In this document: in pieces, positions 5,419 to 22,449 of the stretch | Numbering within the stretch: the stretch's first letter is position 1 | Layout: every line of letters begins with the position of its first letter | DNA from: a virus | Strand: one strand, 5' to 3' | Length of the DNA stretch: 22,453 nt | IMG/VR virus record: IMGVR_UViG_3300048922_000157 | Coordinates: 1-22,453 of that record | Position numbers and translations under genes: made by a program | Notes under the pieces: generated by a model | The model's input: the letters and a program-made list of their open reading frames with translations, nothing else | What the model was told of the DNA's origin: nothing | Database searches by the model: none

Positions 5419-5848
5419 AGCCGTCCCGCAGCTTGAAACAAACCCCGAAATGATGCGCATCTTTGCCGATGAGGGGAATATCGATGCGCGTCTCGCGGCC
5501 TCGCTGTCGCACGAGAAAATTTATACCCTGAATGTGATCGTGTGTGACTTTGTGGGCGACCCTGACCTGATTTTCGTGCCGGTGGCCGCATGGCTCAGGG
5601 AAAACCAGCCGGATATCTGCACGCTCGATGACGGCCGCAAAAAGGGCTACCGTTTCCAGATGGATTTGAACGACGGGGACAGCGTCGATATCAGCATCAG
5701 CCTGCAGCTCACCGAGCGCACCATCATCAAAGAGGAAAACGGCGCGCTGCACGTAAGCTATGCCCCTGAGCCGCCGCTGCCGGAGCCCGTCACCCGGCCT
5801 AAAGAGCTTTATATCAACGGCGAACTGGTGAGCAAATGGGATGAGTGA
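5381..5848 (+). CDS. R: Tail completion protein gpR
   Basis: gpR is required to finish P2 tails. I chose the ATG at 5381 (MKKARSLREAL), giving 155 residues, exactly the P2 length. An earlier in-frame start at 5315 would lie in the lysC coding region without family support, and AGGA lies 8 bases upstream of 5381. Diagnostic stretches are YTLNVIVCDFVGDPDLIFVPVAAWLRENQPDI, the DISISLQLTERT segment and the C-terminal EPVTRPKELYINGELVSKWDE, which is nearly identical to P2. It overlaps lysC upstream and S downstream, so it is translationally coupled to both. Confidence 0.95.
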   Translation: MKKARSLREALIKAVPQLETNPEMMRIFADEGNIDARLAASLSHEKIYTLNVIVCDFVGDPDLIFVPVAAWLRENQPDICTLDDGRKKGYRFQMDLNDGDSVDISISLQLTERTIIKEENGALHVSYAPEPPLPEPVTRPKELYINGELVSKWDE

Positions 5849-6290
5849 ATTTAAGCCCTTTGACGACCGGCTCAATGGTCTGATTGCTGCCCTGTCACCG
5901 GCTGCACGCCGTAAGCTGGCCGGAGAGATAGCAAAGGAGCTGCGCAAGTCGCAACAGCAACGTATCAAGCTGCAGAAAGCCCCGGATGGCTCGCCGTATC
6001 AGGCGCGAAAGCGTCAGCCGCTCAGGGCTAAGACCGGGCGGATTAAGCGGGCGATGTTCCAGAAGCTACGCACAAGCCGGTACATGAAAGCCACTGGCCG
6101 CGAAAACAGCGCGGTGGTTGAATTTACCGGCAAAGTGCAGCGTATCGCGCAAGTCCATCAGTATGGGCTAAAAGACCGCCCTAACCCGCACAGCCGTGAC
6201 GTGCAGTACGCGGCGCGCCAGCTACTCGGACTCAGCTACGAAGATAAGCGGCTCATTGATACTTTGATAATTAACCATCTTGCAGGTTAA
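5841..6290 (+). CDS. S: Tail completion protein gpS
   Basis: gpS is the second P2 tail completion protein and belongs to the same family as Mu gpG (phage virion morphogenesis). At 149 residues it is one shorter than P2 gpS. Visible family features are the N-terminal helix (LNGLIAALSPAARRKLAGEIAKELRKSQQQRI), the basic PDGSPYQARKR segment and the C-terminal RIAQVHQYGLKDRPNPHSRDVQYAARQLLGL...IDTLIINHL. It starts inside the last codons of R (GATGAGTGA). It is the last gene of the O operon before the accessory gene on the other strand. Confidence 0.95.
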   Translation: MSEFKPFDDRLNGLIAALSPAARRKLAGEIAKELRKSQQQRIKLQKAPDGSPYQARKRQPLRAKTGRIKRAMFQKLRTSRYMKATGRENSAVVEFTGKVQRIAQVHQYGLKDRPNPHSRDVQYAARQLLGLSYEDKRLIDTLIINHLAG

Positions 6291-6339
6291 ATGCATATTA
6301 TTGAATGCAATAAACCTGCGTGGGTACTAAATTTAATTG

Positions 6340-7839
6340 CTATTTACGATTTAAGCGCCGACTTTGTTTGGCGTTTTTGTTTTTGCATTTTTTTATTTTT
6401 TTTAATTTCCGTCTGAGTGCTTGAGCATCGGAGGTTTGTGTTCGGCGTTGGGGGGGAGTATATAGATCACTCCCCTTGTAAATCCAGTCTATTATATTTG
6501 ATGGCTTTTGAAGATCGAATATTATACGGGATTCTAGTCCGGTGCCAATAAATGAAGTGTTGCCGTTTTTATAAGAAAAAATAGCTTCCCTATCAATCAT
6601 GAAAAAATCATCAGGATCTGAGAATTTTTTTGGTACAGGTGCTAGGTGTAATAAGTTAGGGTGCATCTTATTTCCCAATTGCATAAACTTTCTATAATCA
6701 AGGCATAATACAATGATTAACTCCCCTGTAATGATGTCTTCTATCAATTCATGAGGGAGATTAAGGTTAAATAATGGCTGGGCGAAATGCTGACCGATGC
6801 TGTCAGAGATGTTGAATACATGACCTTTAAAGTTTGTTCCATCCATCCATGTGTTAAAACCTACAAATCCCATTTCGGATTTTTTATAGGCTCCGACATA
6901 CAAACAATCGTCAATTACCTCTATGCTCCAATTTTTTCCTGACTTTAATTCGCTCCAACAACTTACAATAGCTTGGTTATAAAATTCAGGTATGTAATTA
7001 TCATCTTCAATGTTGACCTGTGTCTTGTGATAGTGGTCATAACCGGTACCTCCGTTGATCGTCTGAGTAATATCGGTCAATCGCTGCCATTGCTTTTTTG
7101 TTCGAGTGTAATGTTTTATATCTTTTTCATTCAGATTTTTAATAAATTGTTCATCAAAGTTTTGGCATTGTGATTCCACTGAGAATTGTGCCGCATGAGA
7201 AAAATCAATGTTCTTATCGCCTGATTTAACCTCGGCGATACTAACACCTTCTCCCATTTTGTAAACGACCAAATCGCCTGCATGGACGAACGTTGTCATA
7301 TCGGATACTATAGCGATGGATGTTGGCTCTTCGTTAATTAAGTCGGCGGCAATCATTGAGTCAATAATATTTTCTTTGGATAAGTTGTCGTTGTTATTTG
7401 GCAAGGATAATCGTCTGATTGATGAGTGCTCGTTGTTAAACAATACCCATACTATCGAATCAATAAATCTTCTTAAAACCTTAATCTCATATTCTTTTAG
7501 TCGAGACTCTCTCAAGCACCTCATTTTCTCTTTGCTGTTTTTTTGCCTATGAAAGTCTTTGGATTGTTTTTGTAGTGATGTGATTTCATCTAACCTAATG
7601 ATTATCTCAAAGGCAATTTTCTTTTGGGCTATTTTCCAACCTTCATGGACTGCGGAAATAAACTCTTTACGTTTGCTTATGGCATTTTGTTCACCTATCT
7701 TTTCAATCCCATACTTCCTTATTAAAAAAAGAAGTTCTTTTGCAAGCGTAACTAACTCAGGTGATAACATCTTCCAAGAAGATCTAAATGGCCTCATCTT
7801 GTATTCCATCACTTTAGAATCATCAATTGCATCAGTCAT
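6340..7839 (-). CDS. Accessory (moron) protein with PD-(D/E)XK-like nuclease motif; candidate anti-phage factor
   Basis: I do not recognise this 499-residue protein as a named family. It lies between S and V on the opposite strand and is clearly AT-rich compared with its neighbours, all signs of a transferred cargo gene. P2 carries its own extra gene (orf30) at this site. Residues 187-207 (AGDLVVYK...SIAEVKSG) contain D189, E203 and K205 in the D-x13-E-x-K arrangement of PD-(D/E)XK nucleases, with an upstream candidate acid E137 in NNEHSSIRRL. Residues 65-125 are helical and charged. The middle (about 290-440) is a mixed, unassigned region. The C-terminus (475-499) is strongly basic and may bind nucleic acid. 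The ATG at 7839 has an AAGG site 9 bases upstream. A DNA- or RNA-cutting defence role is inference. Confidence 0.6.
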   Translation of the reverse strand: MTDAIDDSKVMEYKMRPFRSSWKMLSPELVTLAKELLFLIRKYGIEKIGEQNAISKRKEFISAVHEGWKIAQKKIAFEIIIRLDEITSLQKQSKDFHRQKNSKEKMRCLRESRLKEYEIKVLRRFIDSIVWVLFNNEHSSIRRLSLPNNNDNLSKENIIDSMIAADLINEEPTSIAIVSDMTTFVHAGDLVVYKMGEGVSIAEVKSGDKNIDFSHAAQFSVESQCQNFDEQFIKNLNEKDIKHYTRTKKQWQRLTDITQTINGGTGYDHYHKTQVNIEDDNYIPEFYNQAIVSCWSELKSGKNWSIEVIDDCLYVGAYKKSEMGFVGFNTWMDGTNFKGHVFNISDSIGQHFAQPLFNLNLPHELIEDIITGELIIVLCLDYRKFMQLGNKMHPNLLHLAPVPKKFSDPDDFFMIDREAIFSYKNGNTSFIGTGLESRIIFDLQKPSNIIDWIYKGSDLYTPPQRRTQTSDAQALRRKLKKIKKCKNKNAKQSRRLNRK

Positions 7840-7877
7840 ATAGGTTTACCTTAAGGGGAAAGTTAACAGTAACAAAT

Positions 7878-7938
7878 TGTTGAAATAAACTCTTTTAATT
7901 TACTCGTTTCCATGCCGTTGTGCTAGAGATGGCAAAAA
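7878..7938 (+). promoter_or_regulatory. Possible late promoter for V (PV)
   Basis: P2 has an Ogr-dependent promoter ahead of V. Here TGTTGAAATA (7878-7887) shares 7 of 10 bases with the block ahead of O, and the sequence at 7933-7938 (CAAAAA) falls at the same 54-base offset. That would give a leader of about 38 bases to the V start, close to the O and FI leaders. The match is weaker than at the other two sites. Confidence 0.3.
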
Positions 7939-7982
7939 CCATTGAAGTTGATGCCAGTTTAGCCCGGCGGCATCCTTTCCCC

Positions 7983-8624
7983 ATGAATAATTTAAATTCT
8001 CTGCAGGAAATCGCACGCGCGATCCGCAACCTTATCCGCACCGGCATCGTGACCGACGTCGACCACGACGAGGGGCTTTGTCGTGTCCAGACCGGCGGCA
8101 TGGAAACCACCTGGCTGAACTGGCTAACCTGCCGCGCCGGTCGCTCGCGCGTATGGTGGGCTCCATCCGTTGGCGAGCAGGTGCTTTTGCTGGCGATCGG
8201 CGGCGAGCTCGATACGGCATTTGTGCTGCCGGGCATTTTCTCTGATGACCATCCCGCGCCCTCGGCCTCACCCGATGCGTTTCATGTGTCATTTCCTGAT
8301 GGCGCTGTCATCGAGTACGAACCACAAAACGGCGCGCTCACCGTGTCAGGCATCAAAACCGCAGACGTCACCGCGTCTGAGTCCATTACGGCCACCGTGC
8401 CGGTGGTGCTGGTGAAAGCGTCGAGCCGCATCACGCTCGATACGCCGGAGGTGGTGTGCACCAACAAGCTGACAACCGGCACGCTCGAAGTGAAGAACGG
8501 CGGGAAGATGAGCGGGAACATCGAGCACACCGGCGGGACTCTGAAATCAAACGGCGTGCAGGTGGATAACCACGCGCACGGCAACGTACAGAGCGGCGGA
8601 AGCTGGACTAAGGGGACGCAATGA
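7983..8624 (+). CDS. V: Baseplate spike assembly protein gpV
   Basis: gpV forms the trimeric spike at the tip of the P2 tail that pierces the outer membrane. I chose the ATG at 7983 (MNNLNSLQEIARAIRN), giving 213 residues against 211 in P2; the family begins with the same helix. The frame is open upstream to ATG 7929 and GTG 7920, but those residues have no family match. No strong ribosome site precedes 7983, so the start is slightly uncertain. The OB-like domain (GLCRVQTGGMETTWLNWLTCRAGRSRVWWAPSVGEQVLLLA) and repeated beta-strands (ALTVSGIKTADVTASESITATVPVVLVKAS) are clear. The C-terminal His-X-His motif that binds iron at the spike apex appears as NHAHG. Confidence 0.94.
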   Translation: MNNLNSLQEIARAIRNLIRTGIVTDVDHDEGLCRVQTGGMETTWLNWLTCRAGRSRVWWAPSVGEQVLLLAIGGELDTAFVLPGIFSDDHPAPSASPDAFHVSFPDGAVIEYEPQNGALTVSGIKTADVTASESITATVPVVLVKASSRITLDTPEVVCTNKLTTGTLEVKNGGKMSGNIEHTGGTLKSNGVQVDNHAHGNVQSGGSWTKGTQ

Positions 8625-20214: not shown

Positions 20215-21168
20215 ATGCACAGCGAAACCCCGGTAGTCAGTGTTATTCGACGTTCCTCGCGCCTCATGGTGCGAGAGTTAGGTTTTATGGCCTCGACCCT
20301 GGCCTCAACAAATTACTCCCCTTCGGCCGTCCATACCCTGGTCGAAATCGCCTTACGCAAAAAGATGACGGCGAGTCAGCTGGTGCAGCTGCTGGGCCTT
20401 GAAAAGTCCAGCGTCAGCCGGATGCTGGCTCGTCTGATTGCCGCGGGCGAACTCGAGGAGGTGATTTCACCTGAAGATGCGAGAGCGAAGAGCCTCAGGC
20501 TGACCGCGAAAGGTCATGAGACGGTCAGTAAAATTAATACCTTTAGCAACGAGCGCGTGGTCTCAGCAATAAAGCGTCTTGCTCCTGCCCAGCAGCAGAC
20601 CATTTCTGAGGGACTCTCCCTTTATGCCAACGCGCTGCTGGCGTGCCGTGAAAAAGGCAACGACACGCGCCTCGACGAACTCACGATCGTTAAGGGGTAT
20701 ACTCCCGGCATGATTGGCCGTATCGCGGAGATGCACGGGGTTTATTACGCGCGCGAGCACCTTTTTGGCCGCTTTTTTGAGGTCAAAGTGGCTACAGGTG
20801 TTGCAGAATTTAGTGACCGCCTGGATAAGCCATGCAACCAGATCTGGCTGGCGGTGATGAACGGCAGGATAGTGGGGTCGGTGGCGATAGACGGCGAGGA
20901 TTTAGCGCCGGGTGAAGCCCATCTTCGCTGGTTTATTCTTGACGATGGCTGCCGGGGACACGGGGTGGGGAAAAAACTGTTGACCGAAGCGATGCGCTTT
21001 TGCGACAGCCTTGGTTTCTCTGCCGTGCATCTCTGGACATTCAACAAGCTGACCGCCGCACGACGTTTATACGAATCGTTTGGATTTACGCTCGCCAAAG
21101 AGTGGGAAGGCGACCAGTGGGGAAGCCTGATTACAGAGCAGCAGTTTACACGGTATAAAGACGCCTAA
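20215..21168 (+). CDS. MarR-family regulator fused to GNAT acetyltransferase
   Basis: This is a 317-residue two-domain protein. Residues about 10-145 are a MarR-type winged helix: the recognition part is MTASQLVQLLGLEKSSVSRMLARLIAAGELEE and the wing is SPEDARAKSLRLTAKG. Residues about 155-317 are a GNAT N-acetyltransferase with the acetyl-CoA loop R247-G-H-G-V-G252 (CRGHGVGKKLLTEA), preceded by strand HLRWFILDD and followed by ARRLYESFGF. The acetylated substrate is unknown. The ATG at 20215 is fixed by GAGGG 6 bases upstream. It is preceded by a palindromic operator, so it probably represses itself. It looks chromosomal and intact. It is the first host gene to the right of the prophage. Confidence 0.9.
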   Translation: MHSETPVVSVIRRSSRLMVRELGFMASTLASTNYSPSAVHTLVEIALRKKMTASQLVQLLGLEKSSVSRMLARLIAAGELEEVISPEDARAKSLRLTAKGHETVSKINTFSNERVVSAIKRLAPAQQQTISEGLSLYANALLACREKGNDTRLDELTIVKGYTPGMIGRIAEMHGVYYAREHLFGRFFEVKVATGVAEFSDRLDKPCNQIWLAVMNGRIVGSVAIDGEDLAPGEAHLRWFILDDGCRGHGVGKKLLTEAMRFCDSLGFSAVHLWTFNKLTAARRLYESFGFTLAKEWEGDQWGSLITEQQFTRYKDA

Positions 21169-21178
21169 CCGCCGCGAT

Positions 21179-21200
21179 AAAAAAGGCTCCTTTCGGAGCC
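21179..21200 (-). terminator. Terminator for yciI (minus strand)
   Basis: GGCTCC (21185-21190) and GGAGCC (21195-21200) pair around a TTTC loop. On the minus strand the stem is followed by six T residues, so it ends yciI. On the plus strand the tail is only GCTTT, giving at most weak termination of the convergent MarR-GNAT gene. Confidence 0.85.
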
Positions 21201-21209
21201 GCTTTGGTA

Positions 21210-21506
21210 TCAGAACACTTTCTTATACGGTCGAACCGTCACTTTCGCATACACACCTGCTGCGACATACGGATCTGCGTCAGCCCATGCCTGAGCGGTT
21301 TCCTGAGATTCAAACTCAGCAATCACGGTGGAACCGGCAAAACCGGCGGCACCCGGATCGTTGCTGTCTACTGCAGGCATTGGGCCGGCGGTCAGTAAAC
21401 GGCCCTCATCCTGGAGCAGCTGCAAACGTGCCAGATGCGCAGGGCGCACGGCCTGGCGTTTTTCGAGCGAATCAGCAACATCTTCAGAGTAAATCACGTA
21501 AAACAC
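21210..21506 (-). CDS. yciI: YciI family protein
   Basis: The 98-residue protein is nearly identical to E. coli YciI in length and core ([54 protein letters not shown]). The YCII fold is a ferredoxin-like dimer with conserved His (H24) and Asp (D33) in a putative active site; its reaction in E. coli is not established. It starts with GTG at 21506, as in E. coli, with GGAGC upstream. It is divergent from tonB, and this adjacency is also found in E. coli, so the flank is ordinary chromosome. Confidence 0.95.
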
Positions 21507-21658
21507 GGCGAAGCTCCTTAACCGGTAAAAGTGTCAGTTACGTTATGTGAAAGGGCAAACGACTGCAATGTAAAATAAAAACAATGTTAATACCCTGATC
21601 TGAATGCGCCTTTTTTGGCCTCTCATGCGCTAAAGTTGCGTCAGAACAAAGTGTCTTA

Positions 21659-21688
21659 TTGAATATGATTGCTATTTGCATTTAAAAT
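21659..21688 (+). promoter_or_regulatory. tonB promoter with Fur-box-like sequence
   Basis: TTGAAT (21659-21664) and TAAAAT (21683-21688) are spaced by 18 bases. The 19 bases at 21661-21679 (GAATATGATTGCTATTTGC) match the classical Fur box in 11 positions and appear unchanged from the E. coli tonB promoter as I remember it. Iron-dependent repression by Fur is known for E. coli tonB. The leader to the start is about 32 bases. Confidence 0.8.
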
Positions 21689-21726
21689 CAGTGTTCGGTT
21701 TTTTAACGTTGATGATTATGACTTCG

Positions 21727-22449
21727 ATGACCCTTGATTTACCTCGCCGCTTTCCCTGGCCGACGCTGCTTTCTGTCGTGATTCACGGTGCTGTTGTGGC
21801 GGGTTTGCTGTATACCTCGGTTCATCAGGTTATTGAAATGCCCGCGCCCGCGCAGCCGATTTCGGTGACGATGGTCTCGCCAGCGGATCTCGAACCGCCG
21901 CAGGTTGCCCCTCCGCCGCCTCAGCCGGTAGCTGAACCTGAGCCAGAGCCCGAGCCTGTTCCGGCGCCACCGAAGGAAGCGCCGGTGGTGATCCACAAGC
22001 CTGAACCGAAGCCAAAACCTAAGCCGAAGCCAAAGCCGGTTAAGAAGGTCGAGGAGCGTCCAAAACGCGAAGAACGTCCGGTTGAACCGCGCGCGACCCA
22101 GACGGTCGAAAATGCGGCGCCTTCGCGTCCGGTGATGAATAACACCGCAACAGCGCCTAAGCCGGCAGTCAGTGCCCCGGCGGGCCCGCGCGCGCTGAGT
22201 CGCAACCAGCCTCAGTATCCGGCACGAGCGCAGGCCTTACGTATTGAAGGCCGCGTACGGGTAAAATTTGACGTCACTGCGGATGGCCGCGTGGATAACG
22301 TGGAAATCTTGTCAGCTCAACCTTCTAATATGTTTGAGCGCGAAGTGAAATCGGCGATGCGCAGATGGCGCTATGAAGCCGGAAAACCGGGCAGCGGACT
22401 GATTGTGAATATTGTTTTCCGCCTGAACGGCGGGGCGCAGATGGAATAA
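21727..22449 (+). CDS. tonB: TonB energy transducer
   Basis: TonB links the proton motive force, harvested by ExbB-ExbD, to TonB-dependent outer-membrane transporters for siderophores and vitamin B12. I chose the ATG at 21727 (MTLDLPRRFPWPTLLS), giving 240 residues against 239 in E. coli; upstream in-frame codons lie in the promoter. Residues 12-32 are the membrane anchor with S16 and H20 at the E. coli positions. A Pro-rich rigid spacer follows, with Glu-Pro repeats (about 70-85) and Lys-Pro repeats (about 96-108). The C-terminal domain (from about 165, GPRALSRNQPQYPARAQALRIEGRVRVKFDVT...FEREVKSAMRRWRYE) contacts transporter TonB boxes. The gene is complete; the window ends four bases after the stop. 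Confidence 0.97.
   Translation: MTLDLPRRFPWPTLLSVVIHGAVVAGLLYTSVHQVIEMPAPAQPISVTMVSPADLEPPQVAPPPPQPVAEPEPEPEPVPAPPKEAPVVIHKPEPKPKPKPKPKPVKKVEERPKREERPVEPRATQTVENAAPSRPVMNNTATAPKPAVSAPAGPRALSRNQPQYPARAQALRIEGRVRVKFDVTADGRVDNVEILSAQPSNMFEREVKSAMRRWRYEAGKPGSGLIVNIVFRLNGGAQME

Follow-up and report, generated by a model that had tools for sequence, protein, structure and literature searches.

A candidate nuclease-type moron with an invariant PD-(D/E)XK-like motif between tail genes S and V of a P2-like prophage

Shedu (DUF4263) is a defence protein of the PD-(D/E)XK nuclease type that is encoded by a single gene. Single short antiviral cargoes are likewise found in P2-like prophages, at the A-Q locus (old/tin; Rousset 2022, PMC9122126) and at the fun locus (Vassallo 2022, PMC9519451). 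Both lie in slots different from the one between genes S and V, which is not described as a defence locus in the available portions of these two large defence surveys. The S-V region is one of three moron regions recognised in P2-like phages and includes, in the P2-like phage R18C, the moron ORF16, for which no function is given (PMC6823313). In P2 itself, the annotated gap contains the terminator of the O operon, the antisense and non-essential orf30, and the activator site of the V promoter. Here, we describe a gene in the same slot of another P2-like prophage, which probably encodes an anti-phage defence protein, new but not categorically new.

The gene lies at positions 6340-7839, on the minus strand, of the window, by which we mean the whole stretch of 22,453 nucleotides that was analysed. 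It is an uninterrupted reading frame of 499 codons with an ATG start and a candidate AAGG ribosome site nine bases upstream, and it is the sole gene inside the S-V gap of 1692 bp (6291-7982). The gap is bordered on the left by gene S for tail completion (5841-6290, plus strand; PF05069, E = 1.4e-36) and on the right by gene V for the baseplate spike (7983-8624, plus strand; PF18715, E = 2.3e-27, and PF04717). The GC content is 35-37% within the gene (overall about 36%) versus 57-63% in the flanks (about 59%), and the first-pass annotation, which had called the gene AT-rich, antisense and alone between S and V, was right on all three counts. The gene is thus a lone foreign gene between two tail genes. 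It had also been placed at the site of P2 orf30, and orf30 does have the same slot and the same orientation. The end of S carries an inverted repeat, GCAGGTT...AACCTGC (6282-6319), which may, by its position, be the counterpart of the annotated O-operon terminator of P2, and a GTTGTGC box about 66 bp before V (7917-7937, plus strand), picked out by comparison of S-V gaps, may similarly correspond to the annotated late-activator site of the P2 V promoter. A similar GTTGTGC-type box adjoins nearly all of the S-V cargoes compared. In a simple sigma-70 scan, the number of promoters was not above that in shuffled sequences. The moron would sit in a transcriptional gap that reaches from the end of the O operon to the late V promoter, and its location there on the opposite strand would make expression in the lysogen, outside both late operons, possible.

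In other P2-like phages, the gene is absent from the S-V slot or replaced, as expected for a non-core moron. The slot is empty in SEN1, with a gap of 68 bp, and S-to-V spans of 1160-1161 bp in PSP3 and 186 contain no insert. Elsewhere, it is occupied by an LmuA-like protein (PADLOC, E = 2e-6; Klebsiella phage ST147-VIM1phi7.1), a PIN_12 protein (ENT4), a DUF4062 protein, a HIT-domain pair, a pentapeptide protein or one of several unknowns (L037-L046), and further S-V genes are present in YenM_06.16-2 and in E. coli prophages. Profile comparison revealed no kinship between the LmuA-like protein and the window protein. The slot is known, and its defence-like content appears, from about ten slots, to be under-described; S-V is possibly a third defence hotspot of P2-like phages.

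The window protein has no match in Pfam, NCBIfam or PADLOC (PADLOC-DB 2.0.0, 2023 copy; 0 families) and no usable one in PHROGs, and shares the lack of a Pfam match with P2 orf30. Searches of its relatives against Pfam, PADLOC and PHROGs gave nothing usable, the sole PADLOC signal in the family being a weak one to PDC-M10A in one relative (E = 0.0099), and sequence-based searches of the PDB, with the whole protein and with a profile, returned only a spurious helical match (E = 0.07). The family thus appears undescribed and is absent from Pfam, NCBIfam and the 2023 PADLOC models. While its kind, a prophage moron and candidate nuclease-type defence gene, is already known, the family itself is new to the databases queried. 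A Shedu-type protein would work alike, as a lone nuclease-type effector with a D...ExK core and accessory domains; the window protein, in contrast, has no PADLOC or Pfam match to such families and no detectable sequence kinship with them.

Relatives were collected by tblastn on plasmids, in genomes and in viral contigs. Among other P2-like prophages, whose S-V junctions the first-pass annotation had proposed to search, there are relatives in the same slot and orientation in L003 (Citrobacter sp. R56, 80% identity), L016 (76%), L018 (58%) and L022 (46%), an identical copy in L017, and a frame-broken copy in L024 (8001-9451). The intact S-V residents form one clade (support 100/98). Other P2-like prophages carry a relative after the integrase (L019-L021, L055 and L068), near ogr (L023), between ogr and D (L030-L032 and L034) or near the apparent Q end (L074). 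A more distant relative (27%) immediately follows the integrase in a P4-like satellite (L072, 669-3447), which is marked by an integrase with Arm-DNA-bind_3, AlpA and a Toprim primase. In IncFIB phage-plasmids, in E. coli prophages and in lambdoid prophages, relatives follow AbiH (PF14253, E about 1e-69) at a distance of about 90 bp, forming a recurrent two-gene module (L004, L025, L028, L029 and L035; L006, L011 and L013); at least 80% of this pair is present in one place in 65 of 5426 E. coli genomes. On Pantoea plasmids, relatives are located about 17 bp behind an Abi_2 protein that matches PD-T4-5 (E = 1.9e-31), and further plasmids carry relatives too. AbiH and Abi_2/PD-T4-5 are thus direct upstream neighbours of relatives in several elements; by family search they are unrelated to the window protein, whose own copy has no such partner. 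Members of the family are repeatedly found beside defence genes or at sites where mobile elements vary, and the gene is mobile between defence-type loci. No significant relative was detected in 398 phylum-level and 369 class-level genomes besides the Citrobacter genome used as the centre; over about 1100 genome searches at order, class and phylum level, the family was absent apart from that same genome, and the deposited phage records searched contained no relative.

Between the window gene and its closest named relative, that of Citrobacter, pN is 0.11 and pS 0.79, the latter near saturation, and dN/dS is 0.16-0.23 in unsaturated pairs. Such strong purifying selection indicates that the protein is kept for a function. 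The gene is also lost, as seen from the broken copy in L024 and from a Pantoea plasmid (L010, around 7880-8588) on which a remnant with an internal deletion follows Abi_2.

What this function might be is suggested by the conserved residues. The alignment comprised the window protein and 19 intact relatives, at 26-80% identity, drawn from P2-like and lambdoid prophages, phage-plasmids, Pantoea plasmids and the P4-like satellite. A PD-(D/E)XK signature, D189 and E203-V-K205, had been reported from the first reading of the protein; it is encoded at 7225-7275 on the minus strand (D189, 7273-7275; E203, 7231-7233; K205, 7225-7227), and all three residues, whose conservation had been named as a check on the proposal, are invariant in 20 of 20 proteins, down to 26% identity. 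The protein therefore contains the conserved D...(D/E)xK catalytic-type set of the PD-(D/E)XK superfamily. Among the 30 invariant positions of the alignment, E203 is the only glutamate (of 32) and K205 and K209 are the only lysines (of 49), so that the E-x-K-x-G-x-K-N stretch contains every invariant Glu and Lys of the protein. When invariant positions were shuffled within residue classes, a D-x(7-19)-[DE]-x-K set arose in 138 of 100,000 shuffles (p about 0.0014, a rough guide, since the control ignores the clustering of conserved positions), and the signature is thus more than chance. Outside the motif, R142, R143, D180, R246, Q250 and C312 are invariant, while H186 is replaced by Q in the most distant relatives. 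The upstream acidic candidate of the first-pass annotation, E137, is Q in three and D in two of the 20 proteins, and is for this reason rejected as a catalytic residue. Nor do we claim D160 as the acid of the first helix, as it is acidic in most relatives and S in L072 and L074.

An AF2 model, obtained with a shallow input alignment of 12 sequences (pLDDT 81.7, pTM 0.78), places a helix (155-169) before three strands (174-178, 190-194 and 198-202) and a second helix (208-223). This helix-strand-strand-strand-helix order is, in the model, as expected for PD-(D/E)XK enzymes, with the fourth strand of their alpha-beta-beta-beta-alpha-beta core uncertain, and the predicted strand order would bring D189 and E203 opposite each other on a beta-hairpin. 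A domain-only model (150-465) was weaker (pLDDT 74.8) and contained the same elements. Beyond helix 208-223, further helices and then a C-terminal alpha/beta part are predicted. In Foldseek searches of the whole model against PDB and BFVD, and of the 150-465 model against PDB, the best E-values were 0.26-0.4, with none at or below 0.001, and the best VIA Z-scores were 6.1 (whole model, on helices) and 4.5 (domain model), all to common helical arrangements or with very low scores. No match was convincing; the searches neither support nor exclude the PD-(D/E)XK fold, which is plausible and unproven. The structural check that had been proposed thus gives partial support: the predicted strand order suggests that D189 and E203 face each other, and neither a nuclease fold nor any other was identified with confidence.

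The N-terminal part is predicted to form a long antiparallel helical hairpin (residues 57-133; 7441-7671, minus strand; pLDDT mostly 90-96), which in the alignment is about 40 residues shorter in the distant relatives L072 and L074, the satellite-borne protein of L072 thus lacking about 40 residues of it. After the hairpin follows a conserved linker of very low model confidence (residues 138-152; 7384-7428), which includes invariant RR (142-143) and N152, with the conserved RRL at residues 142-144; it may be a regulatory or substrate loop. The very basic C-terminus noted in the first reading is present in the window protein, with 16 K/R in the last 35 residues (465-499; 6343-6447, minus strand). 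It varies among relatives and is missing in several (L022, L068, L072 and the AbiH- and Abi_2-coupled clade), which puts it outside the conserved core, and we reject it as a defining, essential DNA-binding element.

Taken together, we consider it somewhat better than an even bet that the gene is an autonomous moron, outside the late operons, for a metal-dependent PD-(D/E)XK-like nuclease-type effector that protects the lysogen against superinfecting phages. D189, E203 and K205 would form the catalytic core, the N-terminal helical hairpin would probably dimerise or sense, accompanied by the C-terminal alpha/beta part, and the effector would protect by nucleic-acid cleavage, aimed directly at phage DNA or, in an abortive response, at nucleic acid of host or phage. 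We infer the nuclease activity from the invariant D/E/K set, which points to nucleic-acid cleavage; trigger and target are put forward on the same conditional footing, and an anti-phage or anti-element function is suggested circumstantially by the company of AbiH, PD-T4-5 and integrases, by exchangeability and by mobility. The idea of a single-gene nuclease-based defence, raised at first reading, hence gains from motif invariance and from this genomic association, and is held back by the lack of a confident nuclease fold. Counting against it, the link to Abi genes amounts to guilt by association in a few independent contexts. The same motif evidence, invariance and shuffle control alike, would equally suit a nuclease core that benefits the phage otherwise, for instance in processing DNA, in replication or in competing with plasmids and satellites; relatives on plasmids and phage-plasmids, of which some (Ewingella L005, Rahnella L007) have no evident defence gene beside them, speak for such a role. 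We nevertheless regard it as unlikely, given that the gene's absence from the deposited phage records searched argues that it is not needed for the P2-like cycle, that the slot swaps it with unrelated cargoes, several of them defence-like, and that separate clades of the family are coupled to AbiH and to Abi_2. The many unrelated sites at which the family is found make a homing endonuclease a disfavoured reading.

A non-cutting abortive-infection protein, in which D, E and K bind a ligand or a metal to a different end and the PD-(D/E)XK resemblance is convergent, would account for the lack of a nuclease fold match, and the invariant R142, R143, D180, R246, Q250 and C312 could then form a different active site. 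This is fairly improbable in our view, because the D-x13-E-x-K spacing on a predicted beta-hairpin followed by a helix is the classical arrangement, and the only invariant Glu and Lys lie in E-x-K-x-G-x-K-N. The AT-rich composition, the occurrence on prophages and plasmids and the coupling to Abi_2 or AbiH in some elements would also fit a toxin from a prophage-stabilising toxin-antitoxin or addiction pair; yet the 1692-bp gap holds no second gene, and partners vary from clade to clade, the S-V clade having none, which makes this very improbable. That the gene is a decaying passenger without function is hardly credible: the frame-broken L024 copy and the L010 remnant are what one would expect of it, but the low pN relative to pS and the low dN/dS contradict it, and the gene is intact in most carriers.

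If the nuclease-type defence reading is right, an unannotated effector family, missed by Pfam, NCBIfam and the 2023 PADLOC models, would be added to prophage-borne immunity, and the S-V moron slot would become a third place in P2-like phages in which to look for defence genes. AbiH, for which we know of no mode of action, would be linked to a possible nuclease partner, a link that is directly testable. A further-reaching proposal, which we hold only tentatively and think doubtful, is that the window protein founds an undescribed family of nuclease effectors carried by phages and satellites, centred on Enterobacterales and with a fold arrangement new to the PDB, which acts alone in P2-like phages and elsewhere joins AbiH or PD-T4-5 in a module as its second component; if true, AbiH would gain a nuclease partner and S-V would be the third P2-like defence hotspot. 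At the far end of the window (20215-22449), the late genes of the prophage are followed by a MarR-GNAT fusion gene, a YciI-like ORF and tonB, and the prophage therefore apparently ends near the host tonB.
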